Part shown: positions 24,001 through 40,508 of the stretch, piece by piece
How the letters are laid out: every line of letters begins with the position of its first letter
How positions within the stretch are numbered: the stretch's first letter is position 1
NCBI GenBank assembly: GCA_035063765.1
Contig: JAPSFT010000006.1
Location: 1 to 64,000, forward strand
Reading direction: 5' to 3'
From: Deltaproteobacteria bacterium
GTDB lineage: Bacteria; Myxococcota_A; UBA9160; PR03
Length of the DNA stretch: 64,000 nucleotides
Position numbers and translations under genes: made by a program
The notes under the pieces: generated by a model
Seen by the model: the letters and a program-made list of their open reading frames with translations, nothing else
The model's database searches: none
What the model was told of the DNA's origin: nothing

Positions 24001-24205
24001 GGACGAGACCGGCACCTCGAACGCGGTCCTGACCCCGCCCCGCTACCGGCGCTTCCGCGCACCGCTCCACACCGCGCCGCTCGTCGAGATCGAGGGCCCG
24101 GTCCAGAACGTCGACGGCGTCGTCCACGTGCGCGTCGAGCGGCTGGCCCCGCTCGCACTCCCCGCGGACCTCGACGCCCTGCCGGCTTCACACGACTACC
24201 GCTGA
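21026..24205 (+). CDS. dnaE2: error-prone DNA polymerase III alpha-like subunit, DnaE2/ImuC
   Basis: 1059 residues from ATG 21026. It has the PHP domain at the N-terminus, the polymerase palm with RGSAANSAVCYALGI, the catalytic pair in PDIDIDLP and the third acid in KIDLLGLGML, then a C-terminal OB-like region. The PHP metal ligands are replaced: ELRCAS where replicative DnaE has HCHS, and ADRDGLYG where it has DHDG. AAMTANVITWRTRLAVREVGK and QYVFARYG are typical of DnaE2. The enzyme does mutagenic translesion synthesis, normally with ImuA/ImuB; neither is nearby. Its last 18 bases overlap the convergent PEP-CTERM gene. Confidence 0.92.
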   Translation: MEGEDREVPHPSDYVELRCASAFSFLAGASNPEDLVDRAAGTGHHALALADRDGLYGIPRFHQAAQAAGLAAIVGARVRVLGGPELLLLVETARGHRHLARLLTAAHAKGGKHAPRFVTWDELEAHAGELVALVRGDAALSAAALDRVRATAGAGRTWVDVSRHLDRRLEAAARRAAALAEACGVPVVASNDVRHARAADRVVLDVLTCLREKTSLDGAGRRLAPNAERHLKPPAEMARLFADRPDWLRATRAVAERCAFRLDALGYHFPAFPTPDGVSQQEWLRRLTFAGARRRYGSPLPDRARRQLEHELAVIAKLDLAGYFLIVEDLARFARERGMLAQGRGSAANSAVCYALGITAVDPVGMELLFERFLSEERGEWPDIDIDLPSGEPREAVIQYVFARYGAREPAGTTGTGAAMTANVITWRTRLAVREVGKVLGLDPGAIDRLAKLLSTLALREDLDETRALLRQGGVDPGAPQVRALLGLVGRMTGLPRHLGQHPGGIVIAAGRLDEVVPIEPAAMPGRRVIQWDKDDCADLGIIKIDLLGLGMLNALERTITLVREHEGVAIDLARLPADDAATWAMIQRADTMGTFQIESRAQMATLPRMKPASFYDLVVEVAIIRPGPIVGRLVHPYLNRRAGREPVTYPHPSLEPILRRTLGVPLFQEQLLRIAMTAAGFGGGEAEELRRAMGFKRSRERMERLEARLRAGMTARGITGPAQDDVVRGITSFALYGFPESHAASFALIAWASAWLKQHHPAAFLAGLLDAWPMGFYSPATLVQDARRHGVAVLPIDVAHSSWQCTLEATTRAPANPEPPAVRLPFRFVRGLRERSARRIEAARAERPFSHAADLARRAALAREELLALAELGALASIDPAARTRRAALWQVAGLERDPRSLFAGAAPASTDSPLPEMSPLEATLADYRTSGLSTGPHVMAHLREALQARGVLPAAALRAVPDGRRVRTAGHVVVRQRPGSAQGMCFLTLEDETGTSNAVLTPPRYRRFRAPLHTAPLVEIEGPVQNVDGVVHVRVERLAPLALPADLDALPASHDYR

Positions 24206-25027
24206 GGTGCTTCCTCGGATCCCGACCGCCTGCGGGCCACCGCTCGCCCGCGCGACCGACGTCGAGGGCCAGCGCCCCGGGCGCCTCGGCCTCCGGCCCC
24301 GGGTCTGGACCGCCGGGAGCGCGAGCAACCCGAGGGCGAGCAGGCCAAGCGTCCCGGGCTCCGGCGCGAGGGCTGGCGTCGGCCTTCCCGGCGAGAGGTT
24401 CACGACGGCGTCGAGCTCGAAGGAATCGAGACCCGGCGTGAAGCCGTCGTCGTGGACGAGAACGCTCACCAGCTCGAGTGGACCGAGGTCGAGGCGGTCG
24501 AGATCGATCGCGATCAGCGTGTCCCGGGCATCCGGGCCGAACCCCGGCGTGTCCGCCGAGAAGATGATGAGCTCGTCCAGGCTCCCGAGCAGCAGCAGCG
24601 CTCCCGACGCGAGCCGGCCCCGGAAGCTCGCACCGTCGAGCCCACCGTCCTCGAAGAAGAAGAGCTCGGCGCCCTCCAGCGAGGGCCCTGCGCTGCGGAT
24701 CCCGTCGCTCGTCACCGTGCGCTCGAAGGCGAGCTCGATCCCCCCACCCGTGCCGAGTGCCACCGCGAGCTGGCTGTCCGGCTCGACGCCGAAGCCGATG
24801 TCGTCGGGATCGAAGAGCGCGGCACTGCCGTCGAGGCCGAGATCGCCGTCGGACGCCGGCGCATAGTGGACGACGACGCTTGCCGGAAGCCCACCGGGGA
24901 CACCGAAGAGGAAGGGCGAGGGGTCGGCGAGTCGGATCGACGAGGCCTGGACCGGAGAGGCGGGGAGTCCGGCGGCGATCAGGAGCAGCAGAAGGGACGA
25001 GGACGGCGTGAGGAGCCAGCGGTACAT
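24188..25027 (-). CDS. exported protein with PEP-CTERM-like sorting signal
   Basis: 279 residues. ATG 25027 sits eight bases after GGAG; the in-frame GTG at 25042 is less likely. A signal peptide spans about 1-28 (LLLLLIAAGLPASPVQA). The middle is a beta-rich domain without a recognised family. PEPGTLGLLALGLLALPAV near residue 222 followed by RGRRPRR is a PEP-CTERM signal, which exosortase systems use for surface sorting. Oddly, about 30 further residues follow the basic cluster, and the stop lies inside the dnaE2 3' end. No exosortase gene is in the window. Confidence 0.75.
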   Translation of the reverse strand: MYRWLLTPSSSLLLLLIAAGLPASPVQASSIRLADPSPFLFGVPGGLPASVVVHYAPASDGDLGLDGSAALFDPDDIGFGVEPDSQLAVALGTGGGIELAFERTVTSDGIRSAGPSLEGAELFFFEDGGLDGASFRGRLASGALLLLGSLDELIIFSADTPGFGPDARDTLIAIDLDRLDLGPLELVSVLVHDDGFTPGLDSFELDAVVNLSPGRPTPALAPEPGTLGLLALGLLALPAVQTRGRRPRRPGRWPSTSVARASGGPQAVGIRGSTSAVVV

Positions 25028-25228
25028 CGGCGGCATCTCCACTGCACAGTGTCGGATGAGCAGCGATCCACACCGTGGAAGTGGGCTACGCGCCGAGGGA
25101 GTGGCAGGCGGCGGGCGGCGGGCGATGATGCATCCTGGCGGAGAAGGTGTGCGGATCCACCGAGTTGCGCGCCTTCCCTGCCGGCTCGCTGCCGATCGGC
25201 GCGGCCCGGAGACGCGATCGGACGGGTT

Positions 25229-26308
25229 CTAGTCGCGCTCGCCCTCGAGGACCGCTCCCAGGTAGCAGACGTTCGCGGCATCCGCGGAAGCACGGACACG
25301 GACCCGGGTCGATGCCGGCACGAGCACCTCGAGGGTGAGGAAGTCCCGCGCGGCGATCCGGCGCGAGACGTCGTCGATGGTGATCGAGAGGCAGTCCGAT
25401 CCCACGAAGGCCACGCTGAAGTCGATCTCGCCGGCCCGATCGGGATCGGGCAGTGGCTCCCAAGGGGGCGGCGGAACGACGCGTCTCAGGGTCGGTCGTT
25501 GGATCCAGCCAAGGGTCTCGTCCTCGCAGGCGCAGCGCGAGGATCCGAGGCTCGTTCCATCCCAGAGCGTCCCGCGATGATGGATCACCCGCAACGCGAT
25601 CGGCCGCTCGATCCCGAAGGCGTCGCTGAACTCGCGCAAGGCGGCGGAGGCACCGGGGCCGAGGGCGTCGTCCTCTTGCGAGCAGCGGCGGACGTCCAGG
25701 CAGATCTGGAAGGCCGGGTCGGAGAGCACCGGGCGTGAGACGGCGAAGGTCCAGCGGAAGCGGGCCGGCAGCCCCCCGGCGCCGGTCTCGGGGCAATGCG
25801 GGACGTTCTGGTACAGCGGCCGCCCATGGACGGAACGCTCCGCGGACACGCCGAGCGCACCCTCGGCCACGAAGGCCTCCCCGAGGCTTCCCGCCCGGGA
25901 GTACGGGTCGGGTGCGCCACTCGAGCTGCACGAGCAGCCGGCGGCCGTCGCGAAGCCTCGGCGGGGAATCGCGCTGCCCGGGTCGTCGAAGCCGCCACTG
26001 CCAGCGGGAGGCCCCTCGGTGGTCCACCGGGTGGCTCCGGCGAAGCGGCTTCGGGTCGGCCGGGGAAGCCGCTCGTCACCGCCCCCCCGGCCCGGCAGGT
26101 TCTCGCGATCCCCGACGTACTCGCATTCGAGGGTCGAGGGCGAGGAGGCGGCTGCGGTCTCCGGATCGGGTAGGAGCCCGATCGGGAGCAGCAGCAGGAG
26201 GAGGAGCGCCCGGCGCAGCCGGGCCGGCCTGCGAACCGGGGTGGCGCAGCGCCGCCCCTGGCCCCTCGAACGGAGCCCGGCCGAGACGCGTCGGCGTGTC
26301 TTCCGCAT
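25229..26308 (-). CDS. exported protein of a new four-copy family (long form)
   Basis: 359 residues from ATG 26308. The basic start MRKTRRR leads into LLLLLLLPIGLLP, a signal peptide. The mature protein has ECEYVG, then GALGVSAE, PLYQNVP, SDPAFQICLDVRR, EDDALGPGASAALREF, RVIHHRG, SRCACEDETLGWI and IAARDFLTLEVLVP, ending NVCYLGAVLEGE. These blocks recur in the same order in 31671-32804, and more loosely in 30735-31604 and the end of 27274-29352. I know no named family with them. It is transcribed away from the cohesin-like gene at 26485. Secreted or surface location is inferred from the signal peptide. Confidence 0.75.
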   Translation of the reverse strand: MRKTRRRVSAGLRSRGQGRRCATPVRRPARLRRALLLLLLLPIGLLPDPETAAASSPSTLECEYVGDRENLPGRGGGDERLPRPTRSRFAGATRWTTEGPPAGSGGFDDPGSAIPRRGFATAAGCSCSSSGAPDPYSRAGSLGEAFVAEGALGVSAERSVHGRPLYQNVPHCPETGAGGLPARFRWTFAVSRPVLSDPAFQICLDVRRCSQEDDALGPGASAALREFSDAFGIERPIALRVIHHRGTLWDGTSLGSSRCACEDETLGWIQRPTLRRVVPPPPWEPLPDPDRAGEIDFSVAFVGSDCLSITIDDVSRRIAARDFLTLEVLVPASTRVRVRASADAANVCYLGAVLEGERD

Positions 26309-26484
26309 CCTCGCTCCGAAACCGCAGGATCCCCGGTCCAGCAGCAGCGCCGCCCAGCATACCCACGGAAGTGGATCCGACACAAGCCTCATCGGAGTTG
26401 CGGAAGTCCCACGAGAAGGCTGGACGGGAGCGGCGGATCTGTGGTCCAATCCCTCGCCGTTGCACGACGAGGGAGTTGCCGAAG

Positions 26485-27210
26485 ATGACGCTCCGATCCG
26501 GTTGCGATCAGCGGAGCGCCCGCCCCCGGCGCATCCGGAAGCAGCAAGAGCACGCGGAACGGTCCGGTGTCGGCCCGGATCTCGACGTCGGGGTCCGTCC
26601 CGCTGCGAGGCCCGGCGGGCGTGGCGGCCGCCGAGCCCACCTCGCAAGCTGGCTCCTGGGCCTACCCGCCGCCCTCCTGCCTTCCTCGCCCGCGGGGGCA
26701 GCGACTGCCTGGGCGGTGGTCTCCTTCGAGAGTCCGCCTCCGGTCGCGATCGGTTCGCTCGACCTCTCGCTGACCTTCGACCCCGCGATCCTGCAACCCG
26801 TCCTGGCCGGGAACCCCACCTTCCCGACCCTCGTCGACCCGATCGTCTGTGCGTTCGACCCGCCGTCCGCACCGTGCGCGTCCGCGGCGGGCGCCGCGGT
26901 GGATCTTCCCAGCGCGAACGCCAGCGCGCCGGGGAACGTCGACGTCGCGCTCCTCTCGGTCGCCGGCCTCGGCGCGAGCGGCGACGTCTTCGCCATCGAG
27001 TTCGATGCGATCGGAGCGGGTCCGCCCGACCTCGCGCTGGTCGTGGAATCGATCACCGACCCCGCGACGCTACCGATCCCTCCGGGCCAGCGTCCCGTGA
27101 TCGCCGTCCGCCTCGTCCCGGAGCCCGAGGCCGGCGTTCTCGGCGCGGCCGTGGCCCTCGGCGCGCTCGCGCGGCGCCGCCGGCTTGCGCGCCGACACCG
27201 GTCGAGGTAG
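26485..27210 (+). CDS. cohesin-like surface protein with PEP-CTERM-like tail
   Basis: 241 residues from ATG 26485, although the signal-like segment LASWLLGLPAALLPSSPAGAA lies unusually far in (about 48-70), so a later start is possible. The domain after it reads IGSLDLSLTFDPAILQPV, then GNVDVALLSVAGLGASGDVFAIEF, the strand order of cohesin domains. The tail VPEPEAGVLGAAVALGALARRRR is a PEP-CTERM-type sorting signal. A cohesin-like domain anchored at the surface could hold dockerin-bearing partners such as those encoded at 33-47 kb (inference). It is flanked by two members of the new exported family. Confidence 0.65.
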   Translation: MTLRSGCDQRSARPRRIRKQQEHAERSGVGPDLDVGVRPAARPGGRGGRRAHLASWLLGLPAALLPSSPAGAATAWAVVSFESPPPVAIGSLDLSLTFDPAILQPVLAGNPTFPTLVDPIVCAFDPPSAPCASAAGAAVDLPSANASAPGNVDVALLSVAGLGASGDVFAIEFDAIGAGPPDLALVVESITDPATLPIPPGQRPVIAVRLVPEPEAGVLGAAVALGALARRRRLARRHRSR

Positions 27211-27215
27211 CGAAG

Positions 27216-27246
27216 CGGCCGCCCGCAGCAGCACCGCGGGCGGCCG
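27216..27246. terminator. strong hairpin between convergent genes
   Basis: GGCCGCCCGC at 27217-27226 and GCGGGCGGCC at 27236-27245 are perfect inverted repeats, extended by one C-G pair on the outside, with a nine-base loop. The hairpin lies between the stops of the convergent genes ending at 27210 and 27274. No T-run follows on either side, so a bidirectional transcription barrier is likely but an intrinsic terminator is not proven. Confidence 0.5.
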
Positions 27247-27273
27247 GCATCGCTCCTCGGAGGCGAAACCCGC

Positions 27274-29352
27274 TCAGGGCGCCAGGGGATCCGCCGTCAG
27301 GTAGGCCGCCTCGCAGGACGACACGTCGGCGAAGACCCGTGCCCGCTCGCTGCCCGGCACCAGGATCCGGACCTCGATCAGGTCGCCCGGCAGGAGCAGA
27401 CTGTTCTGCCGTCCTCCGAAGGGCTCGAGGAGGATCGTCTTGGGCTTGCAGCCCAGGAACTCCATGTAGTTGTACGGCCGCATGTCGGTCGGAACCCGCT
27501 CGAGGCCGGGCGTCGTGATCGCGTCCATCGGCCCTCCACACGGTGACTCGGTGTGGAGAGGTCCGCAGAAATGGACCACCTCCATCAGCGCCGGCTCGTT
27601 CGCCACCAGGTAGGAGGTCAGTCCCGGATCCACGCCCCCGCGCGGCGTGAAGGTCTGGGCCGGGCTGTGGTCGTCGCGCCAGGCGCGCTCGGCGCACAGG
27701 GAGCAGCTCACGTCCATCACGTCCTGCATCGGGAGATTGGAGACCAGCATGCGCCAGCTGAACAGGGCGGGTAGGCCGGGTTGGGGGTGCACGCCGGCCT
27801 TGCCAGGCGGAATCCGTGGAATGTTCGACCACACGCCCGGTCGCCCGATGACCTCGAGCGCGCCCTGGGTCGTGAAGGTCTCGCGCGAATCCACGTCCGG
27901 CTCCCCGTCCGGGAAGACGCCGCTGCCGAACTGGGTCCCGTTGCCGAGCGGCAGGGTGGGTACGAGCGAGAGCTGATCGTCGAAGCCGACCCCTTCGTGC
28001 TCCTTGCGCGTGCCCCCGCCGTCGTCGGGCGGCTTCGGGCACTGGTTCTTGTCGGCCCTCGCGCCGGCCTCGGCACGATCGCTCGCGCGGGTGGTCGAGC
28101 CCTCCAGGCCGAAGACCTCGGCGACGTTCTCGAAGGTCAGCGACTCGTTCGGCTCGAAGGGCTCGGCCGAGATGCCCGGCCACTCGCAGCGCACGACGAC
28201 GCGGCCGCAGCTCGGATCGAGGATCCCGTCGAGACCGCAGTCGATGTCACCGGTAGAGGGGAAGGGGCTGGCCGGATTGGCGCGGAAGTCCGCCGGCGGC
28301 AGGGCGCCGGCGATCGAGGCCGTGAAGCCGCCGCCGCCGGTCGGTGTCACCGCGAGCGGGCCCGTCGGGATCGAGTCGGGCTCGCCCTCGGTGACCGCGC
28401 AGGTCGGGGTTCCGAGCGGGACCTCCGAGGACGGCGCGTCCTCGAGGCGCAGCGAATCGAACTCGAGCGAGCCGTCGTTGACGATCGTGTACTCGGAGCT
28501 GAAGACGAACGAGCCCGGAGCCGGAGGCTGGCAGGTGCCCCGCGCCTGCTTCTCGAGGGAGATGCCGGCCCGTGCCACCGTGAAGATGGTCTGGTCCTCC
28601 AGGCAGGTATCGTCCTGGGACCCGCTCTGCAGCCGCAGGACGAAGCGATCCACGTCGAAGGGACGCGGCAGATCGGCCGTCGCGACCTCCAGGAGGATCT
28701 CCCGGCTGACGCTGCCCGGCCCGGGAAGCGCCACGCCGCGCGTTCCGGCCGCGAAGCTGCCCACCAGGGCTCCCGCCAGCACGTCGCAGGGCTCCACCCG
28801 AACCGGGTCTCCCACCAGGAGCGGTCCGGCGCACAGGCCACCCTCCGATCCGGCGAGGCCGCTGAGCGCGAAGCCACCGACGTTCGTCTGGGTCACCGCC
28901 AGGCGGAAGTCCGCCAGGCCATCGGGCGGCACGTTGGTGTCGATCTCGACGGCATAGCCCTCCCGCTCGCCGATGCCGGCCTTGTCGAACTGGAAGGTGC
29001 CGGCGTTCGGATCGCCGTCACCGTCCCCGTCGCCGGCCCTGCCGCCCTGCAGGAATCCGACGCTCAGGACGCCGTCCTGATCGAGCGTGAAGCAGGCTTC
29101 GTTGATGTCCCAGCCCGAGCCGGTGATCGGGGAGTTGCCCTCGAGACAGGCAAGAGCGTCCTCGGGATCGGTCTGACAGGCGGCTACGGCGATGTCGGGG
29201 CGCGTTCCGTTCCCGGCGTCGATTACGGCCTGCTCGAGCGCCTGGAAGGAAGCCGGCTGCGCCGAGGCCGCGAGAGGCCATGCGAGCACGAGCAGGAGCG
29301 GCACGCGGAGGAGCGAACCGGCCTCTCCCCAACAGCGAGTCCGGAGGTTCAT
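27274..29352 (-). CDS. large exported protein with C-terminal domain of the new four-copy family
   Basis: 692 residues; ATG 29352 follows GAGGAGA. Signal peptide 1-31 (LLLVLAWPLAASA). Residues about 32-445 are a beta-rich, cysteine-containing region with an Asp-Gly run (GDGDGDGDPN, possible calcium loop) and a DUF11-like stretch near FSSEYTIVNDGSLEF. Residues 450-692 form the shared domain: KEHEGVG, RETFTTQGALEVI, VSCSLCAER, YMEFLGCKPKTILLE, PGDLIEVRILVP and DVSSCEAAYL, closely matching the whole mature protein at 30735-31604. Probably secreted and disulfide-bonded. The last gene of the minus-strand run; 173 bases separate it from the HEAT-repeat gene. Confidence 0.8.
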   Translation of the reverse strand: MNLRTRCWGEAGSLLRVPLLLVLAWPLAASAQPASFQALEQAVIDAGNGTRPDIAVAACQTDPEDALACLEGNSPITGSGWDINEACFTLDQDGVLSVGFLQGGRAGDGDGDGDPNAGTFQFDKAGIGEREGYAVEIDTNVPPDGLADFRLAVTQTNVGGFALSGLAGSEGGLCAGPLLVGDPVRVEPCDVLAGALVGSFAAGTRGVALPGPGSVSREILLEVATADLPRPFDVDRFVLRLQSGSQDDTCLEDQTIFTVARAGISLEKQARGTCQPPAPGSFVFSSEYTIVNDGSLEFDSLRLEDAPSSEVPLGTPTCAVTEGEPDSIPTGPLAVTPTGGGGFTASIAGALPPADFRANPASPFPSTGDIDCGLDGILDPSCGRVVVRCEWPGISAEPFEPNESLTFENVAEVFGLEGSTTRASDRAEAGARADKNQCPKPPDDGGGTRKEHEGVGFDDQLSLVPTLPLGNGTQFGSGVFPDGEPDVDSRETFTTQGALEVIGRPGVWSNIPRIPPGKAGVHPQPGLPALFSWRMLVSNLPMQDVMDVSCSLCAERAWRDDHSPAQTFTPRGGVDPGLTSYLVANEPALMEVVHFCGPLHTESPCGGPMDAITTPGLERVPTDMRPYNYMEFLGCKPKTILLEPFGGRQNSLLLPGDLIEVRILVPGSERARVFADVSSCEAAYLTADPLAP

Positions 29353-29525
29353 GTGCGATCTTCTCCTCGGGCCGCCACCGTTCTGGAGCCGACCCGCTTC
29401 CAGTTGTCCGTATCACGCCTCGCATCCGCTCCGGATCCTCCGCGCTGCATCCACTGCGAGCCTCAGCTCGCCCTCGACCTCGCCCACGGCCCTGCCACGA
29501 CGCCAGCGGCGGCGGCAGGATCCGC

Positions 29526-30686
29526 TCAATCGTTCTCACCGAACACGACCACCTGCCCACTCGCAGGCGCGCGCGGTCCACGCCCGCCTCCGTTCGAGGG
29601 CGGTGCTCCGCCGTGTAGAGCCGGGTCGAAATTCGGTCCCGGATCGAGGGCCGGCCCTCCGGTCCTCGCGTAGCGCAGCCCGATGGCGGCGCCCTCCCGT
29701 GCGCTCCTGCTGCGGTGGTTCGCGGCGACCCACTCGAGCGCCGATACGACGCGGCCGGGGTCGAGGCCGTCGGCGAGGCGGCCCATGTCCATCGCGGCCG
29801 TCCGGACGATGTCGCTCGAGGGGTCCTGGAGCGCCGCGAGGTAGAAATCGGTGAGGCCCTGCCAGTCCGTGCTGTTCGCCGCGGCCTGGAGCTTCCGGTA
29901 GCGGACCCGCGTGTCGTCCGTCGCCTGGAAGTCCGCGATCAGCGGGGTCATGTCGTAGGCCGCGCGCGCGCGGAACAGGTCGACGGGGGCGACCTGATCG
30001 GATCGGGAGATCTCGCCCAGGGCCTCCGCCGCCGCTGCCTCCGCCTCCGTTCCCGCGAATCGACCGAGACCCAGGACGGCCATCCGTCCCAGGTCGGTTC
30101 CCGACTCCGCGGCCGCCAGGCCACGAAGCGCGTCGACGGCGGCGGTCGCTCCGGAGGCGGCGAGCGCTGCGACGGCGCGTTGCCGCTCGTCCGGGGAGGC
30201 CCCGGCGTCCTTCGCCAGCGCGACCGCGTCCGCGAGGCTCATCGCCGGCGCCGGCTCTGCCGTGGCCGGCGGTTCGCTCGCAGGCCCGCGGGCTGCCGCC
30301 AGGCTCGCGCGGATCGCGCCGAGCTCGGACGCGGAGCCCTCGCTGCGAGCGACGGCAACCACCCGCAGCAGGTCGTCGCCGCGGAACACCTCGATGCGGC
30401 CGAAGGAGCGGCCGAGGAGGCGGTCGAGCGCGCCGGGCTCCGCGAGCTGCTCCGCGGCGCCCGCCGGCAGCGCCAGGCCCTGTTCTCCGTCGAGGAAGTC
30501 GATGTGGGGCTCCGCCTGGCCGCCCCGGGCGGCAGGGGATACGAGGAGCCAGGAAAGGAGGACGGCCCATCCGGTTCGCGGCGTCGAGCGCGCTGTCCAG
30601 ATGGGCCGGAGAGCCCGGAGGGAAGGGGACGCCGGGCGCAGGTGCCGTACCGGCCTGCACAGCGCCCCCTTCACCATCCTGTACAT
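29526..30686 (-). CDS. exported HEAT-repeat-like protein
   Basis: 386 residues from ATG 30686 (ATG 30677 also possible). A hydrophobic segment, GWAVLLSWLLVSPAARGG, near residue 40 is a late signal or anchor. From about residue 155 the chain is a run of paired alanine-rich helices of about 30-35 residues (ERQRAVAALAASGATAAVDALRGLA, LGRMAVLGLGRFAG, DIVRTAAMDMGRLADG, AREGAAIGLRYARTGG), which is the HEAT/PBS-lyase repeat pattern used for protein binding. The end is Gly/Pro-rich and disordered. It lies 48 bases after the small family member, so is probably co-transcribed with it. Confidence 0.7.
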   Translation of the reverse strand: MYRMVKGALCRPVRHLRPASPSLRALRPIWTARSTPRTGWAVLLSWLLVSPAARGGQAEPHIDFLDGEQGLALPAGAAEQLAEPGALDRLLGRSFGRIEVFRGDDLLRVVAVARSEGSASELGAIRASLAAARGPASEPPATAEPAPAMSLADAVALAKDAGASPDERQRAVAALAASGATAAVDALRGLAAAESGTDLGRMAVLGLGRFAGTEAEAAAAEALGEISRSDQVAPVDLFRARAAYDMTPLIADFQATDDTRVRYRKLQAAANSTDWQGLTDFYLAALQDPSSDIVRTAAMDMGRLADGLDPGRVVSALEWVAANHRSRSAREGAAIGLRYARTGGPALDPGPNFDPALHGGAPPSNGGGRGPRAPASGQVVVFGEND

Positions 30687-30734
30687 GGCTCTCGTCTCCT
30701 GCTCCTGCCCATCGAGGCGATGGTGTCTCGCCTT

Positions 30735-31604
30735 TCAGGGCTCACCCAGGCAGATGTCCTTGAAGGCACCTTCCCCGGGAAGGCAGCCACGGATGTAGGA
30801 GACCTCGCAGGACGTCACGTCCAGGTTGGCGTGGAGGTCGGCGGTCGCCGGAACGTCGATCGTGACGTTCAGCAGGTCGCCGCGGAAGAACGTGCCATCG
30901 TTCTCCACCACCACGACTTTGGGCTTGCAGCCCAGCCACTCGACGTAGGACGAGGGCTCCCCCCGGGCCGAGGTGTACTGGAGCAGCCCGGGAATGGTGC
31001 GGACCTTGAGAGGCTGGGTTCCGCTGCAGGTCGGGTTGCCGCTGCTGCAGGTATGCCGCACCGAGAGGCGCCAGGGCTCCTGGGCCTTGTTCAGCTTGGC
31101 GAGCAGCTCGCTGTCTCCCTCGAAGTAGTCCTGCTCGTACCCGTTCTCGTACGGAATGTAGGTCTGCCCCGGACCCATGCTCTGCGGGCGCTGAGCGCAG
31201 ACCGAGCAGGTGACCTCCAGGTTCGAGAGGATGGAGCTGCTCTTGATCCCGATTCGCCACTCGGCGCTCGCCGGGAAGCCCGCCTGGCGGAACCCCGGCT
31301 CCTTGATCGTCGGGATCGACTGGTAGTTCCCGGAAGGCACCGGGATGACCTCGAGCATGCCGCTGCGGGAGAAGCTTTCGCCCGCGAACTCGTCCACATC
31401 CTCCGTGCCGTACTTGTTTCCCGGCCCGCCCGGAGGCGCGATCGGGGATCCGATCGGCGTGCAGCCGCCGTCGTCACCGCGCTTGTCGAGCACGGTGTCG
31501 CGGCCGACGCATTCGTGTTCCTTCACCATCGCCCCCGCGAAAGCCTGGGCGGGCAGCAGGGCCATCGCCGCCAGCGCCGCGAGGAACGTCGTTGCGCGCT
31601 TCAT
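30735..31604 (-). CDS. exported cysteine-rich protein of the new four-copy family (short form)
   Basis: 289 residues. ATG 31604 has AAGGAG nine bases upstream. Signal peptide 1-24 ends AQAFAGA. Landmarks in the mature chain: KEHECVG at 28-34, ESFSRSGMLEVI at 76-87, CSVCAQR at 133-139, RHTCSSGNPTC at 183-193, VEWLGCKPK at 221-229, RGDLLNVTIDVP at 241-252 and DVTSCEVSYI at 262-271. The cysteine pairs suggest disulfides formed outside the cytoplasm. It is essentially one copy of the domain found at the C-terminus of the 692-residue protein at 27274-29352. Function unknown. It follows the 377-residue member by 66 bases. Confidence 0.8.
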   Translation of the reverse strand: MKRATTFLAALAAMALLPAQAFAGAMVKEHECVGRDTVLDKRGDDGGCTPIGSPIAPPGGPGNKYGTEDVDEFAGESFSRSGMLEVIPVPSGNYQSIPTIKEPGFRQAGFPASAEWRIGIKSSSILSNLEVTCSVCAQRPQSMGPGQTYIPYENGYEQDYFEGDSELLAKLNKAQEPWRLSVRHTCSSGNPTCSGTQPLKVRTIPGLLQYTSARGEPSSYVEWLGCKPKVVVVENDGTFFRGDLLNVTIDVPATADLHANLDVTSCEVSYIRGCLPGEGAFKDICLGEP

Positions 31605-31670
31605 GATTCTCTTCTCCTTGCTGAGTGCGATCCTCTGGAACTCGTGCCGCTTCATCGCTGCACCCGCCGA

Positions 31671-32804
31671 TCAGAGGCCGGTCTCGCCCGGAAGGGGCGT
31701 CCCGATGTAGCCGAGGGCCGCAGAGTCCTGCGACGCACGGACGCGATGTCGCGTCGTCGACGGAATCTTGAGCTGTACGGTGATGAAGTCACGAGCGGCG
31801 ATGAAGCCGTCGTTCTTGACCGTCTTCACGATGCAGTCCTTGCCGATGAAGGCCACGCTCTCGTCGAGGATCTCCTCCGAAACCTCGACGAAGCCCGGAT
31901 CGGGGAGCTGGTCCTCCGGATACACCGGATGATGGACGTGCTGCAGGGTCGGATTCAGGATGTCCACCAGCGAGCGGTCCTCGCAAGGGCAGCGCGACGG
32001 GCCGTTGCCCTGGGGAGCCGGGAGCTGGAGGTTGCCGCGATGATGGACCACGCGGATCAGCACCGGATGCTCCGGGCCGTGATGGTCCCAGAACTCGCGC
32101 AGCGCGATCGTGGCGTCCTGGCCCAGCGCGTCGTCCTCTTCCTGCGGCCGGCGCACGTCGAGGCAGATCTGGACCTGGATGTCCGACACCACCGGCCGCT
32201 CGAGCCCCATCGTCCACTGGTAGTCGGCCGCAAAGCCGCGCTGGCCGGTGACGATGTCGGTCGGGACGTTCTGGTACACGGGGAAGCCGTTCACCGAGCT
32301 CGCGCCGGGCACCAGGAGCGCGCCAGCCGTCTTGAACGCCTCCTTCACCTGGCTCCCGGTCTTGTAGAAGTCGGTGCCGCCGGCACCCGTGCAGCCCACC
32401 CGGATCGCATCGGTCCCGCCGTCCTGGAGCAGCTCCGGGACCTCGTCCTGGAGGCAACGCCTCGGGTCGAACTGGATGCGGTTCACGGGATCCCCGGCGA
32501 AGTCCTCGAAGCACTTGGGGTCGTTGGCCGCGTTGGTGGCCGAGGGATCGCAAGCGCTCGAGTCGGAGCGGCCCGGGGGCGGACCCTCGGCGATCGAGTT
32601 GGCCGAGTTCGCGATCCGCGCCACGACCCCGTTGATCCCCTCTTCGAAGGGCGATTCGCCTACGTCGAAGCCCACCTTGTTGCGATTCTCGACGGCACCC
32701 ACGAACTCCTCTTCGAGGACCGTCTTGCCCGCCAACGCCGTCCCCGCGCCGAGCGTGACGCCGAGCGCCACCGCCAGCAGGGATGCGAAATGCGTCCTCA
32801 TCAC
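31671..32804 (-). CDS. exported protein of the new four-copy family (long form, second copy)
   Basis: 377 residues; ATG 32804 has GGAGG nine bases upstream. Signal peptide 1-26 (LLAVALGVTLGAGTALAG). Landmarks: EEEFVG at 31-36, VYQNVP at 176-181, QICLDVRR at 212-219, RVVHHRGNL at 251-259, CPCEDRSL at 272-279, IAARDFITVQLKIPS at 335-349 and ALGYIGTPLPGE at 363-374. The closest relative in the window is 25229-26308. Two histidines next to a Cys-x-Cys could bind metal (inference). It is the first gene after the sigma-54 promoter candidate at 32952-32967 and so probably heads the operon that continues to 29526 or 27274. Confidence 0.8.
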   Translation of the reverse strand: MMRTHFASLLAVALGVTLGAGTALAGKTVLEEEFVGAVENRNKVGFDVGESPFEEGINGVVARIANSANSIAEGPPPGRSDSSACDPSATNAANDPKCFEDFAGDPVNRIQFDPRRCLQDEVPELLQDGGTDAIRVGCTGAGGTDFYKTGSQVKEAFKTAGALLVPGASSVNGFPVYQNVPTDIVTGQRGFAADYQWTMGLERPVVSDIQVQICLDVRRPQEEDDALGQDATIALREFWDHHGPEHPVLIRVVHHRGNLQLPAPQGNGPSRCPCEDRSLVDILNPTLQHVHHPVYPEDQLPDPGFVEVSEEILDESVAFIGKDCIVKTVKNDGFIAARDFITVQLKIPSTTRHRVRASQDSAALGYIGTPLPGETGL

Positions 32805-33154: not shown

Positions 33155-35302
33155 TCACGGCGCCAGGTCCACGTTCATGGTGTCGGCCGCGACGAAGCCC
33201 GAAGCACCGCAGTCGCGCGCCTCGAGCCGGAGCGTGTAGCGCCCCGGAAGGTCCGCCCGGAACGTGGTGTCGAGGACGGTCGGGTTGCCGAGAAGGGGCT
33301 TGCTGCCCGCCGGCTGGCTCGTGACGCTCCAGAGGATCGCGAGGGGTTGGCTGCCCGCCGGCACGTCGTTCGGATCGGAGGCGCTCGCGTCGATCGCCAG
33401 GTTCACATTCACGGCTCCGGCCCGATCCGGGCCCGCGGAGACCACGGGGGGCGCGTTGAGCATCGGGACCGTGACCGCGTTGTTGCCGGGGCTCAGGTCC
33501 GGCGGGGCCGCCGGCAGGGGTGGCAGCGCGGGGGTCGGAGCGAGGGAGAGCTGCAGGGTCGATGCGCCGAGGTTCTGCGTCACGCGCCCCCGTAGCGGAG
33601 CCTGGAGGGCTCCGACCGGCACGCAGTCGAACTCGAAGCCGTCGAGCGCGGTCGAAGGCGCCGCGAGCGCATAGCGGAAGTTCTCGAAGCCCTTCGAGAT
33701 GCCGAGGTCCTTGGCCCCGGCCAGATCGGCGAGGTTCTGGAACTCGACCTGGACGTCGACCACGTCCCCCACCTCGCGATGGCACGCTTCCTCGGAGCTC
33801 CCGGGCTCGAAGAACCGTACGCGCGTGATGGCGAGATCGGGGCTCCCGAGGCCGCGGCCGCTGCCGACGCAGAACCGTCCCTCCGCGGTGCTGGCGCCCT
33901 GCGGGAAGAGGTTGTTGCCCTCGTCGAGCTCGTGGATCGCGCCGCCGGTGCCGGGCGGGTTGCCGGGCTGACTGCCGGTGCTGTCCACGAGCGCCCGGAA
34001 GTCGTGCAGTCCCGGCGGCAGCAGGAGCGGCCCTCCACCCGCCACGCAGTCGCCACCCTCCGCAACGAACTGCGAGAACGCGAGGGCCACGGACTCGCCG
34101 GGGTCGAAGCGCTCGCCGGGCGGAATCACGACCTCGGCACAGGAGCGGCTGGTCGGCGGAAAGGGCCCGAAGGGGCCGGGGACGGGCGGGAAGACGCCCG
34201 CGTAGTCGATGAAGACGTCGCTCCAGAAGCTGGCGACGGCCGACGCATCGCCGACGTTCGCGACCTCGAAATGGAAGGAGATCGGGTCGAACTGCGAAGG
34301 GGCGGCCGGCTGGATGATCGGCACCGCGCTCGGACGCGGCACGAGATCCGCGGCGACCGGTGGGCACTGCGCCACGTACAGGGCCGGCGCCTGGCCCGGC
34401 ACGTTGTCGGCAAAGGTCTCGTCGGCGAGGCGGTGGAAGGGGTCGACGACGGCCGACCACTCCTGGATCGTCTCGACGGGCTCGGTCGCGAAGACGGGGC
34501 CGACCTCGACGATCAACGCATGGCCGCCGGCGGACTCGGTCGTCGCGCAGGTGATCCCGGGCGCCGAGAAGCCCTCGGGGCAGACGACCGAGCAGGCATC
34601 CGCGGGACGGGGCGGCGGGTTGGCGAAGAGGCCGTCCCCGTCTCCGTCGACGTCCTCGGGTCCCGGGAAGGAGCCGCCGAAGGGCGGCGCATCGAAGTCC
34701 CAGGCGGTGGCGTCCTCTCGCATCCAGAGACAGACCTCGAAGGGAACCGTGGGGGGCTGCGCGAGACCGACGACCGTGCGCAGGCGGACCTCGGCCGGAC
34801 CGTCGAAGGCACCGTTCAGGTTGCAGTCCACGTCGCCGGCAAACTCGTCTGGGAAGGGATCGCCGGGGAAGACGTCGCGGTCCCCGAGCGCCGGCTGCGC
34901 GGGCAGCGTGCCGAGATCGGTCCGGTAGTCCGCGTTCGCCGGCTCGAGCCGGATCAGGCCGACCGCCGCCCGCAGGAGCACGAGGGCGTCGGCGGCGTTC
35001 ACGAGCCCGTCGGGGGTCGGCTTCCACTGCGCGAGACCGCCGCCGGGTGCGGGCAAGGGAACACCCGGCGCCACGTCGATCGACCAGTCCCCCAGGCCGC
35101 AGCCGATGGAGCTCACCAGGGAAAGCGCCCGGCGCAGGGCGATCAACGCATCGGCGACCGTGACGCGTCCGTCCCGCTGCGCGGGACACCAGGCCGACCC
35201 TGCGGCGGTCCCCGGTGCCACGTCTCCGGGCTGGGCACGCGCGACGGAGGCGACTCCACCGAGCAGCAGGGACAGCAGCAGCCACGAGAGCAAACGCTTC
35301 AT
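33155..35302 (-). CDS. exported protein: duplicated N-terminal dockerin-like motif, CARDB-like and PKD-like domains
   Basis: 715 residues from ATG 35302. Signal peptide 1-23. Two dockerin-like motifs follow at the N-terminus: DGRVTVADALIALRRALSLV, and DGLVNAADALVLLRAAVGLI after a DVAP element. The middle has Ca-loop-like runs (DVDGDGDGLF), cysteines, and CARDB-type strands (ISFHFEVANVGDASAVASFW, DPGESVALAF, HELDEGNNLF). The C-terminus (about 600-715) is PKD/REJ-like: VVSAGPDRAG, DASASDPNDVPAGSQPLAIL, ADLPGRYTLRLEARD. Probably a secreted scaffold or structural subunit. It is the last gene of the operon that begins with the histidine kinase, ending just before the sigma-54 promoter region. Confidence 0.78.
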   Translation of the reverse strand: MKRLLSWLLLSLLLGGVASVARAQPGDVAPGTAAGSAWCPAQRDGRVTVADALIALRRALSLVSSIGCGLGDWSIDVAPGVPLPAPGGGLAQWKPTPDGLVNAADALVLLRAAVGLIRLEPANADYRTDLGTLPAQPALGDRDVFPGDPFPDEFAGDVDCNLNGAFDGPAEVRLRTVVGLAQPPTVPFEVCLWMREDATAWDFDAPPFGGSFPGPEDVDGDGDGLFANPPPRPADACSVVCPEGFSAPGITCATTESAGGHALIVEVGPVFATEPVETIQEWSAVVDPFHRLADETFADNVPGQAPALYVAQCPPVAADLVPRPSAVPIIQPAAPSQFDPISFHFEVANVGDASAVASFWSDVFIDYAGVFPPVPGPFGPFPPTSRSCAEVVIPPGERFDPGESVALAFSQFVAEGGDCVAGGGPLLLPPGLHDFRALVDSTGSQPGNPPGTGGAIHELDEGNNLFPQGASTAEGRFCVGSGRGLGSPDLAITRVRFFEPGSSEEACHREVGDVVDVQVEFQNLADLAGAKDLGISKGFENFRYALAAPSTALDGFEFDCVPVGALQAPLRGRVTQNLGASTLQLSLAPTPALPPLPAAPPDLSPGNNAVTVPMLNAPPVVSAGPDRAGAVNVNLAIDASASDPNDVPAGSQPLAILWSVTSQPAGSKPLLGNPTVLDTTFRADLPGRYTLRLEARDCGASGFVAADTMNVDLAP

Positions 35303-35340: not shown

Positions 35341-36420
35341 TCAGCCCCGCTTCCCTCCGAGCTCGCTCTCGATCAGACGACGGAACACGTCGATCGGCTC
35401 CGCACCGAACACCGGCTTGCCGTTGACGAAGTAGGCCGGCGTGCCCTGCACGCCAGCGTCGCGACCGGCCGCCAGGTCCGCCTCGACGAGGGCGCGATAC
35501 CGCTCCGAGGCCAGGCAGGTCTCGAAGGCGGCGAGATCGAGACCGACCGCGCCGGCCAGCTCCCGGAGCTTCTCGTCGCTCAGCGCGTCCTGGTGCTCGA
35601 AGAGCAGATCGTGGTAGGGCCAGAAGCGACCCTGCTCGTTGGCGCACATCGACGCCTGGGCGGCGGGCATCGCCTCGGCGTGGGAGCTCAGCGGGAAGTG
35701 GCGATAGACGAGGCGGAGCTTGCCGGGGTACTCCTCGAACAGCGCCTCCATCGGCTCGCGCATGCTCCGGCAGTAGGGGCACTGGAAGTCGGAGAACTCG
35801 ACGATCGTCACCGGTGCCTGCGCGTCTCCGCGCGCCGGCGCCTGCTCTCCCCCCGCCACCGCGACCACGGGGAGCACCGGCTGGGGCAGATCGATCTCGA
35901 CGCCGGCCTCGTTGCGCAGCCGCGCGAGCAAGGCGTTCTTCAGCTCCTCGCGCTTCTGTCCGACCCGCACCTTCCGGAGCTCGTCGTGGACCTCGTCGAA
36001 GGGCCGGCCGATCCGTTCCTCGTACTGCTGGTAGAGCGCCCGGAGGTCCTCCTCGCTCACGAGCTCGGCGGGCTCGCCGACCTCCTTGCGCATGAGCTCG
36101 GTCGGCGTGATCCCCTGCCGCTTCGCCTCTTCCGTGATCACACGCGCGTCGACCAGGAAGCTCAGGCGCCGTTCCTTGGCGGCGTGCATCTGGTTGGCAT
36201 GATCGATCTCGGCCTTGAACAGCTCGCTGTGCATCTCCTCCTCGAGCTCTGCCTCGGTGAGCTGCCAGCCCTCCATGCGCGCCACGACCCGGTCCCCCTT
36301 CCCGTCGTGGATGCCGTGCTGGCAACCGGTGGCGAGCAGGCCGGTGGCGAGGATCGCCACGAGACACGCGGGAGCGAGGCAATGCGCGAGGGGGCTTCGG
36401 GAACGGTTGGGTCGGTCCAT
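35341..36420 (-). CDS. lipoprotein: SurA/PpiC-like N-terminal segment fused to DsbA-like thiol oxidoreductase
   Basis: 359 residues; ATG 36420 has GGAGGAG nine bases upstream. Lipobox LLATGC with Cys33. Residues about 50-170 are charged helices (EGWQLTEAELEEEM, DARVITEEAKRQGIT) like the SurA/PpiC N-terminal chaperone region, without a rotamase domain. Residues about 195-359 are a DsbA/thioredoxin-like domain with the redox site CPYC at 214-217 and GTPAYFVNGKPVFG holding the cis-proline. The family oxidises or isomerises disulfides in the periplasm. Its place among cysteine-rich exported proteins suggests it folds them (inference). Confidence 0.85.
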   Translation of the reverse strand: MDRPNRSRSPLAHCLAPACLVAILATGLLATGCQHGIHDGKGDRVVARMEGWQLTEAELEEEMHSELFKAEIDHANQMHAAKERRLSFLVDARVITEEAKRQGITPTELMRKEVGEPAELVSEEDLRALYQQYEERIGRPFDEVHDELRKVRVGQKREELKNALLARLRNEAGVEIDLPQPVLPVVAVAGGEQAPARGDAQAPVTIVEFSDFQCPYCRSMREPMEALFEEYPGKLRLVYRHFPLSSHAEAMPAAQASMCANEQGRFWPYHDLLFEHQDALSDEKLRELAGAVGLDLAAFETCLASERYRALVEADLAAGRDAGVQGTPAYFVNGKPVFGAEPIDVFRRLIESELGGKRG

Positions 36421-36454
36421 GGCAACGGGCTCCTCCACGATGGGACGGGTTCGT

Positions 36455-38041
36455 TCAGCAGGGGTCGATCGACCGATCCAGGTTCACCTGGATGCAGCGT
36501 CGGTTGTTGGTGTCGTCGAGCTCGGGAATCTGGTGATCGGGATCGAGATCGAGCTCGATCCGCGCGGGCATCGCGAGCAGCGGCAGGAGGTCGCTCTCCA
36601 GGAACCCCTGCGCGCCCACCACGAAGCAGGGCAGGTCCGACGAGAGCTCCTGGGGCTGGGCGCCGAAGACCGAGATCCGGAGCCGGGCGAAGGCGGCCGG
36701 CTGGGGGAAGCCGCCGGCGAAGGGCACCACGTCGCGGGTGCCGGCGTTCGAGAACCCCGCGCTCACGCGGAAGCTGCTGCCGGCAAAGCTCGGGACGATG
36801 GCGTCGGCGCGCAGGTCGACGAGATCGCCGGGCTCGGCCGGGCCGCTCCCGATGCACAGCGGGAGCGGTGGGCTCACGTTGTTCGACTCGTTGATCTCGG
36901 CGACGTCGCCGATCGCCACGGGCGGCCCGCAGGTCTCGAGCCCCCCATCGACCGTGGCCCAGAGCACGTGGGGGCCGGGAGCGACGCCACTGCCGAGACC
37001 GGTCGGCAGCGAGACGACGATTTCGCCGCCACCCGGCACCGGCGTCTCCACCTGCGAGAACAACGGCGCGCAGGCGCCGGGCTCCGGGGGGACGGGGGGA
37101 TCGAAGAACACGTCGAGCGCGAAGGGCACCTGGACGGGTGCCGTTCCCTGGTTCCGGATCGTCACCTCGAGCGTGAACGGCTCGCCGGGGAGGGGGACCG
37201 GAGGTCTGACACCGATCGCTCCGAAGGTCGGGAAGACGAGATCGGGCTGGGGCGGCGGCGGCGGCGCCACGAGCAGGGAGCCCGCGAGGACGTTGTTGCC
37301 CTCGTCGGATTCCGGGATCTGGTCGCCGTCGTCGAGCACCAGCCAGAAGGATCGGAATCCCGTGTCGGCGGGTACCGTCAGGTCGACGCCCACCTGCCGC
37401 GACTCGCCGGCCGCGAAGCCCTCGAGCGGGGAACAGGCGAGCGGCGCCGGCGCCGGCACCGCGAGGGGATCCGTCGGGTAGGCGCAGAGCAGAGCCGGGC
37501 CGCTGGCGGCGTTGCGCGAGACCGCCTGCGCGAGCAGCGTGCTGCCGATGCCGGCCAGGAGCGGGAAGTCGGCGGCGAAGAGCCCGCCCTCGAAGTGGAG
37601 ATCGGGCGCTGCGGTGATGCGCACGAGTCCGAGCGAGGCGCGCAGCAGCACCAGCGCGTCGCTCGCGTCGACGACGCCCTCGCCACCGGCCACGAACAGC
37701 GGCGGATCGGCGCTCGCGTCGAAGGCCGCTGGCGGAGCCACGTCCACACCCTCGTCGCCGATCGTGACGCCATCGCACGCGAAGCCGCTCACGAGGCCGA
37801 CAGCGCGGCGCAGGACCAGCAGCGCGTCGGCGACGTCCGTACCGTTGCCTCCCCCCGGACACACGAGCGGCGGCTGGGCAGCGTCCGGCACCACGGGTGC
37901 CACGTCCCAGGGCTCCACGGCGCCGGCTTCCAGCGCCCGCGCCACGAGGCCCGCGGCGAGGAACAGGCCGACCAGGAGCCGAGCGGCTCCGCGCCCTCCC
38001 GACCACAGCCCAGCCTGTCCCTGCACCCTGTGCAATCGCAC
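36455..38041 (-). CDS. exported CARDB-repeat protein with duplicated N-terminal dockerin-like motif
   Basis: 528 residues if started at GTG 38041 (GTG 38026 also fits); upstream frame extension would overlap the neighbouring gene and is rejected. The hydrophobic segment ARLLVGLFLAAGLVARALEA is the signal peptide. Dockerin-like motifs: VADALLVLRRAVGLV and DGVVDASDALVLLRASLGLVRI (the latter after VDVAPP; sequence reads EGVVDASDAL). Three CARDB-like domains follow, each ending in an IPE.D..NN pattern (IPESDEGNNV, EINESNNV, IPELDDTNNRRC). These act as extracellular adhesion or spacer modules. It sits in the run downstream of the regulator genes. Confidence 0.75.
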   Translation of the reverse strand: MRLHRVQGQAGLWSGGRGAARLLVGLFLAAGLVARALEAGAVEPWDVAPVVPDAAQPPLVCPGGGNGTDVADALLVLRRAVGLVSGFACDGVTIGDEGVDVAPPAAFDASADPPLFVAGGEGVVDASDALVLLRASLGLVRITAAPDLHFEGGLFAADFPLLAGIGSTLLAQAVSRNAASGPALLCAYPTDPLAVPAPAPLACSPLEGFAAGESRQVGVDLTVPADTGFRSFWLVLDDGDQIPESDEGNNVLAGSLLVAPPPPPQPDLVFPTFGAIGVRPPVPLPGEPFTLEVTIRNQGTAPVQVPFALDVFFDPPVPPEPGACAPLFSQVETPVPGGGEIVVSLPTGLGSGVAPGPHVLWATVDGGLETCGPPVAIGDVAEINESNNVSPPLPLCIGSGPAEPGDLVDLRADAIVPSFAGSSFRVSAGFSNAGTRDVVPFAGGFPQPAAFARLRISVFGAQPQELSSDLPCFVVGAQGFLESDLLPLLAMPARIELDLDPDHQIPELDDTNNRRCIQVNLDRSIDPC

Positions 38042-38070: not shown

Positions 38071-39297
38071 TCAAGGCCGCGGGACCACCCGCACCTCGAT
38101 GCTCTTCTCGTTGTTGTCCTCTCCTCCGTCGCTGCCCTCGTCGATCTCGTGGTACGGGTCGGCCACGGCCCGCACCGTCCAGCCTCCCCCGACGTTGAAG
38201 GACAGCGGAATGCCGGGCAGCACGAACGACGCGCCCGCGGCCAGGAAGCGCAGATCGAGGGAGCGGCGCTCCGGCTCGGCGGTATTCGCGAAACCCGGCA
38301 GCGGCGCGTCCGGCCCGAAGCTCAGGTCGACCGAGAAGGGGACGGCCGTGTCCGCGGTCCCGCGGTTGGCGACCCGCACGCGGATCACCGCCCGATCGCC
38401 CAGGGTCGCCGACGGGGGATCGAGCTCGAGCGACTCGATGACCAGATCCGCACGACCCGACTGCTCGGCGCTGCCGACCGCCACGATCGCCGGGCCGGTC
38501 ACGTTGTTGGAGCGGTCGAGGTCGTTCGTCTCTTCGTCCGTATCGACCTGCGCGTGCACGCCGACCAGGCGCGGCTTGTCGAAGAGCAGCCGCATGGGAA
38601 CCTCGAAGCGTTCGCCCGGGCCCAGGGGCGGCACGCGCACCCGATGCTGTCCGGGCAGGCGCGGCTGGGGCCCGATCTCGTCGTTCACGTAGAAGTCGAG
38701 CGCAACCGGCCCGGTGGTCGCGGCCGTCCCGCGGTTCTCGACCGAGGCCACCACGCGGAAGTCGCGCCCGGCGCCGGGCGAGGCCGGATCGAAACGCAGC
38801 TCGCCGAGCGCCAGATCGGGTTGCGGCGGCCGGGGCGCCGCGACGGTCAGCGCCGAGAGGATGACGTTGTTGTCGCGGGTCTCCTCCTCGACCTGGTCGT
38901 CGGGATCGAGCACGAAGTACCACTGGAGCTCGCCGGGCTGCTCGGGAGCCTGCCAGGGGAGGGAGGAGGTGTGTGTCGCACCGGCAGCGATCGGATCCTC
39001 GAGCCGCCCCGCGAAGATCGGAGCCTCGGGCTCGGCAACGCGGGGATCGGAGGCATAGGCGACCACGTCGACGCCGCCCGGAAAGTCGCCGGCCCCGGCA
39101 TTCGCGACGACGAACAGCAGGTGCGCCGAGGCGCCCGGCGCCGGGAACATCGGGTCCGCGGACACGAAGCTCGCGAAGCGGAGATCCGGGCGCGGCGCTC
39201 CGACCTTGCGACCCGTCTCCCGCAGGCCGACGAAGAGCAGCAGGGCCAGGACCGCCGTCGTCGCCGCCCCCAGGATCGCCCACCGGGTTCCGCTCAT
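38071..39297 (-). CDS. membrane-anchored three-CARDB protein
   Basis: 408 residues. ATG 39297 overlaps the stop of the cohesin-dockerin gene (ATGA at 39294-39297). An N-terminal anchor, WAILGAATTAVLALLLFVGL, lacks a cleavage-type motif, so the protein is probably anchored with the rest outside. Three CARDB-like repeats of 110-125 residues each contain the PDL..... start, the N(R/A)G(T/A) centre and the D-x-x-N-N finish (VEEETRDNNV, DEETNDLDRSNNV, DEGSDGGEDNN). A CARDB protein without dockerin motif; possibly the inner attachment of the extracellular assembly (inference). Confidence 0.78.
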   Translation of the reverse strand: MSGTRWAILGAATTAVLALLLFVGLRETGRKVGAPRPDLRFASFVSADPMFPAPGASAHLLFVVANAGAGDFPGGVDVVAYASDPRVAEPEAPIFAGRLEDPIAAGATHTSSLPWQAPEQPGELQWYFVLDPDDQVEEETRDNNVILSALTVAAPRPPQPDLALGELRFDPASPGAGRDFRVVASVENRGTAATTGPVALDFYVNDEIGPQPRLPGQHRVRVPPLGPGERFEVPMRLLFDKPRLVGVHAQVDTDEETNDLDRSNNVTGPAIVAVGSAEQSGRADLVIESLELDPPSATLGDRAVIRVRVANRGTADTAVPFSVDLSFGPDAPLPGFANTAEPERRSLDLRFLAAGASFVLPGIPLSFNVGGGWTVRAVADPYHEIDEGSDGGEDNNEKSIEVRVVPRP

Positions 39298-40508
39298 GGT
39301 GCCTCCGCTCGTCCTGCCACAGGGTTCTGCGTCTTCTCTTGCGCCGACTGCCGGAGCTGCTCGAGCCTCCGGACCCGCTCGCTCTCGACGAGGTTCGCGC
39401 GGAAGGCCTCGAGGTCGATCGCATCGATCACGCCGTTGCGTACCAGATCGAAGGTGTCGTCGTAGCCTTCGCGGCCCGCGCGCAATCCGAGCCGCTCGAT
39501 CAGGGCCTGGCGATCGCGTGCGCCCTGCGTGCCGTCACCGTCGAGGTCGACGTCGACACGCGGGTACACCGGCAGCGGATGGCGCTCGAGCAGCCCGAAG
39601 GCCGCGAGCTCGACCGACGCCGGCAGGGAGCGTCGCTCGACGACCAGGCGAACGGAGAGGCCGTTCCCATCGGGCTCGATCCCTTCGACGCGTACGCCCG
39701 CGCCGGCCACCTGGAGCGTGGCGGGCGCGAGCGACAGCGCCTCGATGGAACGCCAGGCCCGGACGCGGAGCCGGATCCGCGGCGAGGGTCCGTCCGCCAG
39801 CACGGCGCGGGGCTCGAACTGGACCTGCAGGCGATGGCCCGCGGCGCGTGCGGCGAGGTCCTCCGCGCGGCGCTCCGGATCGAGCGGTCGCCCATCGGCA
39901 TCGAAGCGCGGGGCGCCCTCGCCGGAGGCCGATGCCTCCGCGTCGGCCTCCGGCGCCTTCTCGCCCTCCGGGTCCTCGCGCGGGGCCGCGGCGCGCTCGT
40001 CCTCCGCCGGGACCTCGGTCGGCTCGGGTGCGGCCTCCGGGTCCGCCCCGAGCGCCACCCGCGCAGAGGCGGTCTGGACATCGATCGGGGTGCCCGTGAG
40101 ATCGGTCACGCGCGCCTCCAGCTCGAGATCGACGGAGCCGGATGCCGCCTGGACGGGGAAGCGAAGCCGCGCGAGCTGTCCTTCCCCCGACACCCCGCTC
40201 GGCACGAGCACGGCCAGCCGATACGAGCCTGGCTCCGCCGTGTGGTCGAGGGCCATCCCGTGTCGGGCGAGGACGCCGCGCTCGCGCGTCGGCGCGGCGA
40301 GCCGCTCCGGATCGAAGCGCACGATCAGGTCGAAGCTTCCGGCGTCGTGCAGATCACTCGCGAGTACGTCGACGACGATCGCCGACGACTCGACGGTCAC
40401 CGCCTCGAGGCGCAGCTCGCTGGCCCGCGCGGAGGGCGCGCTCCACCCCGCCAGGACCAGCAGCGTCGAGAGGACCCATCCGGGACGGTGACGAAGCCAT
40501 GCGCGCAC
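39294..40508 (-). CDS. exported protein with N-terminal cohesin-like and C-terminal dockerin domains
   Basis: 404 residues; signal peptide 1-29 (STLLVLAGWSAPSARAS). Residues 31-152 follow the cohesin strand pattern: LEAVTVESSAIVVDVLASDL, GSFDLIVRFDPERL, YRLAVLVPSGVSGEGQLARL, ending VQTASARVAL. A Pro/Glu/Ala-rich linker covers 155-200. A second beta domain covers about 225-312. Residues 318-373 are a canonical-looking dockerin: DVDLDGDGTQGARDRQALIERLG, then FDLVRNGVIDAIDLEAFRANL. Having both partners in one chain allows chain building or intramolecular capping (inference). Nine bases after the regulator gene and overlapping the next. Confidence 0.75.
   Translation of the reverse strand: MRAWLRHRPGWVLSTLLVLAGWSAPSARASELRLEAVTVESSAIVVDVLASDLHDAGSFDLIVRFDPERLAAPTRERGVLARHGMALDHTAEPGSYRLAVLVPSGVSGEGQLARLRFPVQAASGSVDLELEARVTDLTGTPIDVQTASARVALGADPEAAPEPTEVPAEDERAAAPREDPEGEKAPEADAEASASGEGAPRFDADGRPLDPERRAEDLAARAAGHRLQVQFEPRAVLADGPSPRIRLRVRAWRSIEALSLAPATLQVAGAGVRVEGIEPDGNGLSVRLVVERRSLPASVELAAFGLLERHPLPVYPRVDVDLDGDGTQGARDRQALIERLGLRAGREGYDDTFDLVRNGVIDAIDLEAFRANLVESERVRRLEQLRQSAQEKTQNPVAGRAEAP

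Follow-up and report, generated by a model that had tools for sequence, protein, structure and literature searches.

TasA and camelysin, which make up jelly-roll matrix fibres in Bacillus, are secreted beta-sandwich proteins with an N-terminal strand ahead of the core, and TasA, whose subunit is a jelly roll, polymerises via an N-terminal donor strand (PMC9674648). The CanA cannula proteins of the archaeon Pyrodictium comprise several orphan paralogues with few relatives by sequence; CanA is a jelly roll that forms an extracellular network as divalent-ion-driven polymers (PMC12326000). Cellulosome-type systems are built from dockerins and cohesins and are anchored by S-layer domains, and dockerin-cohesin systems are best known for arranging glycan-acting enzymes (PMC12484212). 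Orphan families of exported proteins abound in uncultured bacteria: the FESNov catalogue of uncultivated taxa holds 404,085 novel families, 23.7% of them with signal peptides (PMC10849945).

Here we describe four exported-type proteins, members A to D, encoded in a 64,000-nucleotide stretch of deltaproteobacterial DNA (the window). They would resemble TasA and camelysin in being secreted beta-sandwiches with an N-terminal strand ahead of the core, but have no sequence match to them, carry extra cysteines, have no visible SipW- or TapA-type partner and lie in a Gram-negative-type setting with a secretin. Like CanA they are several orphan paralogues; sequence matches between the two are likewise absent, and CanA (7uii) appears only as a non-significant fold match. 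We know of no comparable gene neighbourhood for CanA. The neighbours of A to D recall cellulosome-type systems in their dockerin-like pairs (PF00404, reaching or narrowly missing the cut-off) and cohesin-like domains, whereas A to D have neither domain, no glycoside hydrolase was found adjoining, and anchoring here would be by PEP-CTERM. As with FESNov families, A to D are exported and without homology to characterised proteins (PMC10849945). Unlike those, the four paralogues share one locus and are not known from any other genome; a catalogue built across many genomes would therefore probably overlook the family.

Table 1. Family members and neighbouring genes, in window coordinates.
Feature	Coordinates	Strand	Remarks
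PEP-CTERM protein	24188..25042	-	PF07589 E 9e-4, 19.7 bits vs cut-off 20.7; low-GC3 edge of block, beside dnaE2
Member A (long type)	25229..26308	-	359 aa; hydrophobic signal-like N-terminus; HHRG and CACED motifs; 39% to D
Cohesin-like domain, PEP-CTERM-like tail	26638..27210	+	PF00963 E 0.021, below cut-off; tail read from sequence
Member B	27274..29352	-	692 aa; family domain residues ~447-692 (27274-28014)
HEAT-repeat protein, exported	29526..30686	-	386 aa; PF13646 E 7e-7; between B and C
Member C (short type)	30735..31604	-	289 aa; CSVC, HTC, LGCKPK and SCE motifs
Member D (long type)	31671..32804	-	377 aa; GTG start; HHRG and CPCED motifs
Double dockerin-like N-terminus	33155..35302	-	715 aa, 14 Cys; Dockerin_1 E 0.04
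Lipoprotein-like SurA_N/DsbA fusion	35341..36438	-	PF13462 E 5e-33; PF01323 E 5e-28
Double dockerin-like N-terminus, CARDB	36455..38026	-	CARDB E 3.5e-10
Membrane-anchored CARDB protein	38071..39297	-	PF07705 E 6e-25; N-terminal hydrophobic stretch read from sequence
Cohesin-like N-terminus, dockerin-like C-terminus	39294..40508	-	Dockerin_1 21.2 bits vs cut-off 22.9 (C-terminal fragment)
Sigma-54 response regulator and histidine kinase	40518..43159	-	Two-component pair
1213-aa protein	43401..47042	-	Dockerin-like pair, PKD and invasin-D3-like repeats, cohesin-like C-terminus
GspD-like secretin	47175..49319	+	PF00263 E 2e-23; N0 domain E 1e-15; other low-GC3 edge

The four reading frames exist at the coordinates proposed in the initial annotation, each with a purine-rich, ribosome-binding-like stretch on its 5' side. 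Its claim that they form one homologous family of four diverged copies was borne out, with all six pairwise BLASTP comparisons giving E ≤ 2.5e-4 (A with D, 39% identity, 1e-63; B domain with C, 32% identity, 1e-27; A with B, 5e-12; C with D, 3e-9; B with D, 3e-7; A with C, 2.5e-4) and Smith-Waterman scores 8.7 to 97 standard deviations above composition-preserving shuffles. Profile-profile alignment of the short pair (B, C) with the long pair (A, D) using hhalign gave a probability of 96.7 and an E value of 3.5e-10. Judged by these comparisons, A, B, C and D are beyond doubt true homologues and paralogous. The alignment separates two long members (A and D, 44% identical where aligned) from two short ones (the B domain and C, 36%); identity between the pairs is 25-28%. 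HHRG and C-x-C are common to A and D, LGCKPK and SCE..Y to B and C. Invariant in the four-way alignment are E-x-E-x-V-G, E-x-F...G-x-L-x-V, the P of YQNxP, a W, an R, P...V-x-H, the D of GD/RD, the P of VP and a C-terminal Y; the variable loops differ widely in length.

The landmarks said to be shared by all four copies stood in the alignment except for the "C-containing block". There the cysteines of the two pairs occupy different columns (none is common to the long and short pair), so this block, as aligned, is a shared strand and not a shared cysteine. Five cysteines are shared within each pair, and cysteine content is 2.1-3.5% in A to D versus 0-2% in their neighbours. Signal peptides had been assigned to all four; by eye, each does have a hydrophobic, signal-peptide-like N-terminus. 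Residues 1-446 of B are unrelated to the family domain and had no match in Pfam, the PDB or plasmids. Within this part an acidic DGDGDGDPN loop and a stretch reading like a DUF11-type repeat were noted.

The earlier statement that A to D belong to no named family at sequence level holds for the libraries searched. Against Pfam, NCBIfam, PHROGs and PADLOC nothing exceeded a curated cut-off and only noise was returned; the family profile matched no PDB sequence, nor did B (phmmer/HMM), and no catalytic family was matched in the profile libraries. The TasA/camelysin profile (Peptidase_M73) did not match A to D at E ≤ 1, Pfam found no dockerin or cohesin domain within them (dockerin-like and cohesin-like domains occur in neighbours only), and they have no PEP-CTERM tail (PF07589 unmatched, C-termini of soluble sequence). 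An NCBIfam FxsB match on C was rejected (E 0.008, 15 bits against a cut-off of 370), and a PADLOC HEAT match (E 0.008) was taken as generic HEAT similarity. By these searches, the family is one that sequence libraries do not yet contain.

Structures were predicted with AlphaFold2 from the four-row alignment, giving a mean pLDDT of 44 for D and 53 for C, with core blocks at 65-81. Mapped onto the alignment, the C and D models show the same order of elements: an N-terminal strand, a long variable loop, strands, a helix, a strand, a variable insert and three strands. For the comparison of a long with a short member, the strand order agrees, but at low confidence, and since both models draw on one and the same set of four sequences, their agreement is not independent proof. 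Foldseek searches of both models against the PDB and BFVD gave no match at E ≤ 1e-3. The best non-significant scores were mostly to jelly-roll or beta-sandwich proteins (TM 0.1-0.4), among them the Eph ligand-binding domain, a CBM, yeast adhesins, lectins and C1q-like proteins; Eph receptors, p53, LipL32 and capsids were rejected as homologues (E > 1e-3, TM 0.1-0.4). A jelly-roll-like beta-sandwich is our working model for A to D, weakly indicated by these predictions.

A profile of the family recovered exactly four places in its own genome, which are A to D. No relative was found by profile search in 79 other genomes of the order, 90 of the class or 378 of the phylum (235 other genera), using thresholds of E ≤ 0.01, 0.001 and 0.1 for order, phylum and class, respectively. 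The single match at 0.1 (class level, E 0.094) was rejected as noise, lying antisense inside a mercuric-reductase-like frame. The nearest relative compared, a species of the same genus, has no copy, and no relatives were found in viral contigs, phages or plasmids. Pattern scans of 84,980 species (one genome each) using D and the B/C alignment also gave none; these scans need short, near-exact peptides and are weak for divergent families, and absence from all life is not claimed. Between two species of the genus dnaE2 and tkt are ~74-83% identical, whereas A to D are 25-44% identical among themselves. If rates were comparable, the duplications giving A to D would be older than the genus, in which case either the set would have come as a whole from a source that was not sampled, or every sampled relative would have lost it. 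Fast evolution of A to D would weaken this dating.

The four genes lie in a block (24188-49319, ~25 kb) with GC3 below that of the flanks on both sides: the median is 0.890 in 16 block genes versus 0.948 in 22 flanking genes (Mann-Whitney p 3e-6), with visible steps at dnaE2/24188 and 49319/kup. In the same-family genome G003, dnaE2 and tkt adjoin directly and are convergent, while 33 kb separates them here. This is not a clean empty site: G003 has no malic-enzyme gene there, and in other relatives that gene is beside tkt. In the same-genus genome, the expected site of the block is flanked by contig ends. No integrase was noticed and no tRNA was found at the block edges (the only one is tRNA-Pro, 60277-60352). 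The block is likely an accessory genomic island.

Genes for surface-assembly modules abound around A to D (Table 1). The 26638-27210 gene separates A from B and runs in the opposite direction. Three proteins of the block start with a dockerin-like pair, and cohesin-like domains occur in three, one with a PEP-CTERM-like tail; the Pfam cut-off for dockerin is reached in one gene (the 1213-aa protein, Dockerin_1 22.9 bits; its PKD match has E 2e-18) and nearly reached elsewhere, and all cohesin calls are below cut-off (for the 404-aa product of 39294-40508, PDB cohesin E 0.23). The 1213-aa and 404-aa proteins each seem to carry both cohesin-like and dockerin-like partners. A non-cellulosomal cohesin-dockerin system at 26638-27210 and 33155-47042 is possible on these profile matches. 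The exported proteins nearby showed no domain of a glycan-acting enzyme. Three exosortases are encoded in the genome, and within the collection of papers searched none names PEP-CTERM, dockerin and cohesin together. In the SurA_N/DsbA fusion, SurA_N_3 is below cut-off (E 0.003) and the lipobox was read from sequence. Fusions of this kind, 34-40% identical, occur in same-family genomes, at least some of them beside a glycogen-phosphorylase-like gene, so the copy here appears to be a paralogue at a new location. The HEAT-repeat protein has no clear relative in the 79 other genomes of the order, where two weak matches are short or stop-broken. Secretin relatives in the order are ~30% identical and lie in other contexts, with no HEAT, DsbA or A to D genes within ~20 kb in ten other genomes. 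A "shared regulatory region" had been proposed for A to D; this was not backed by scans, in which sigma-70 sites and Rfam matches were absent and neither terminators nor sigma-54 sites were in excess.

Tentatively, and at somewhat less than an even chance, we favour the reading that A to D are Sec-exported, disulfide-containing beta-sandwich paralogues of an accessory island, serving as structural or adhesive units of an outer-surface or extracellular assembly. After export by Sec, their disulfides would be formed by the DsbA lipoprotein encoded in the same gene run, cohesin-like, dockerin-like and CARDB neighbours with exosortase-sorted PEP-CTERM-like tails would tether the assembly to the cell surface, with the secretin as a possible outer-membrane exit; A to D may together make up one structure as its distinct subunits. 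All that follows export is read from gene order and composition. Since A to D have no dockerin, cohesin or anchor, we infer from gene order that they join the neighbours' structure. Homology, exported-type N-termini, absence from sampled relatives, surface-assembly neighbours, the three exosortases, the low-GC3 block and, weakly, the matching element order and jelly-roll-type best scores of the two models are consistent with building blocks, and high cysteine content and the DsbA gene point to disulfides. Against this, sequence and fold matches reveal no function, the predicted models have low pLDDT and draw on four sequences, the cohesin-like calls fall short of the Pfam cut-off, and the odd number of shared cysteines per pair (five) does not fit simple full disulfide pairing.

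Among the invariant residues, the polar ones (E, E, D, E, R, H, D) might just as well belong to a metal-binding or active site. They suit the rather unlikely alternative that A to D, instead of being structural subunits, are exported to bind ligands or metals or to work as enzymes on a substrate outside the cell, such as carbohydrate, with copies differing in specificity. Several non-significant fold matches (to carbohydrate-binding modules, lectins and domains of yeast adhesins) and the usual role of dockerin-cohesin systems noted above, point the same way; the lack of catalytic family matches and of glycan-acting domains in the neighbouring exported proteins argues against it, as do cysteine, HHRG and C-x-C sets that differ between the pairs. 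It is improbable that A to D are pilin-like units whose E-x-E-x-V-G strand inserts into the next subunit by donor-strand exchange, as in TasA fibres. The block order is conserved, in A, C and D the motif comes directly after the signal peptide, a long variable loop separates it from the core, and a strand is predicted there (residues 27-33 of C, 31-35 of D); however, placement of this strand has very low confidence, the TasA/camelysin Pfam family is unmatched, the motif is charged and not hydrophobic, and in B it is internal, behind ~446 residues. Divalent-ion-driven polymers of the CanA kind are a further rival. We regard as very improbable a lineage-restricted structure of a new type, in which heteropolymers of four disulfide-locked beta-sandwich subunits would stand on a PEP-CTERM-anchored, non-cellulosomal cohesin-dockerin scaffold with its own secretin. 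Hardly any weight is given to neutral or decaying lineage-specific duplicates with no common function: the family was found in one genome only and its loops vary widely, but four open frames are intact with coding-type GC3 and signal-like N-termini, and such intactness at 25-44% identity is unlikely without selection.

Should A to D be no more than orphan secreted proteins, they would be one commonplace case among the many unknowns in genomes of uncultured organisms. Four copies at one locus, within a surface-assembly island, lift them above the average orphan family, and the island taken as a unit, including a possible cohesin-dockerin system anchored through PEP-CTERM, may be a more interesting object than A to D themselves. 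If A to D are subunits of a surface structure, the building-block reading would mean a bacterial surface-assembly system invisible to sequence libraries, and would add a possible PEP-CTERM-anchored cohesin-dockerin scaffold outside cellulosomes.
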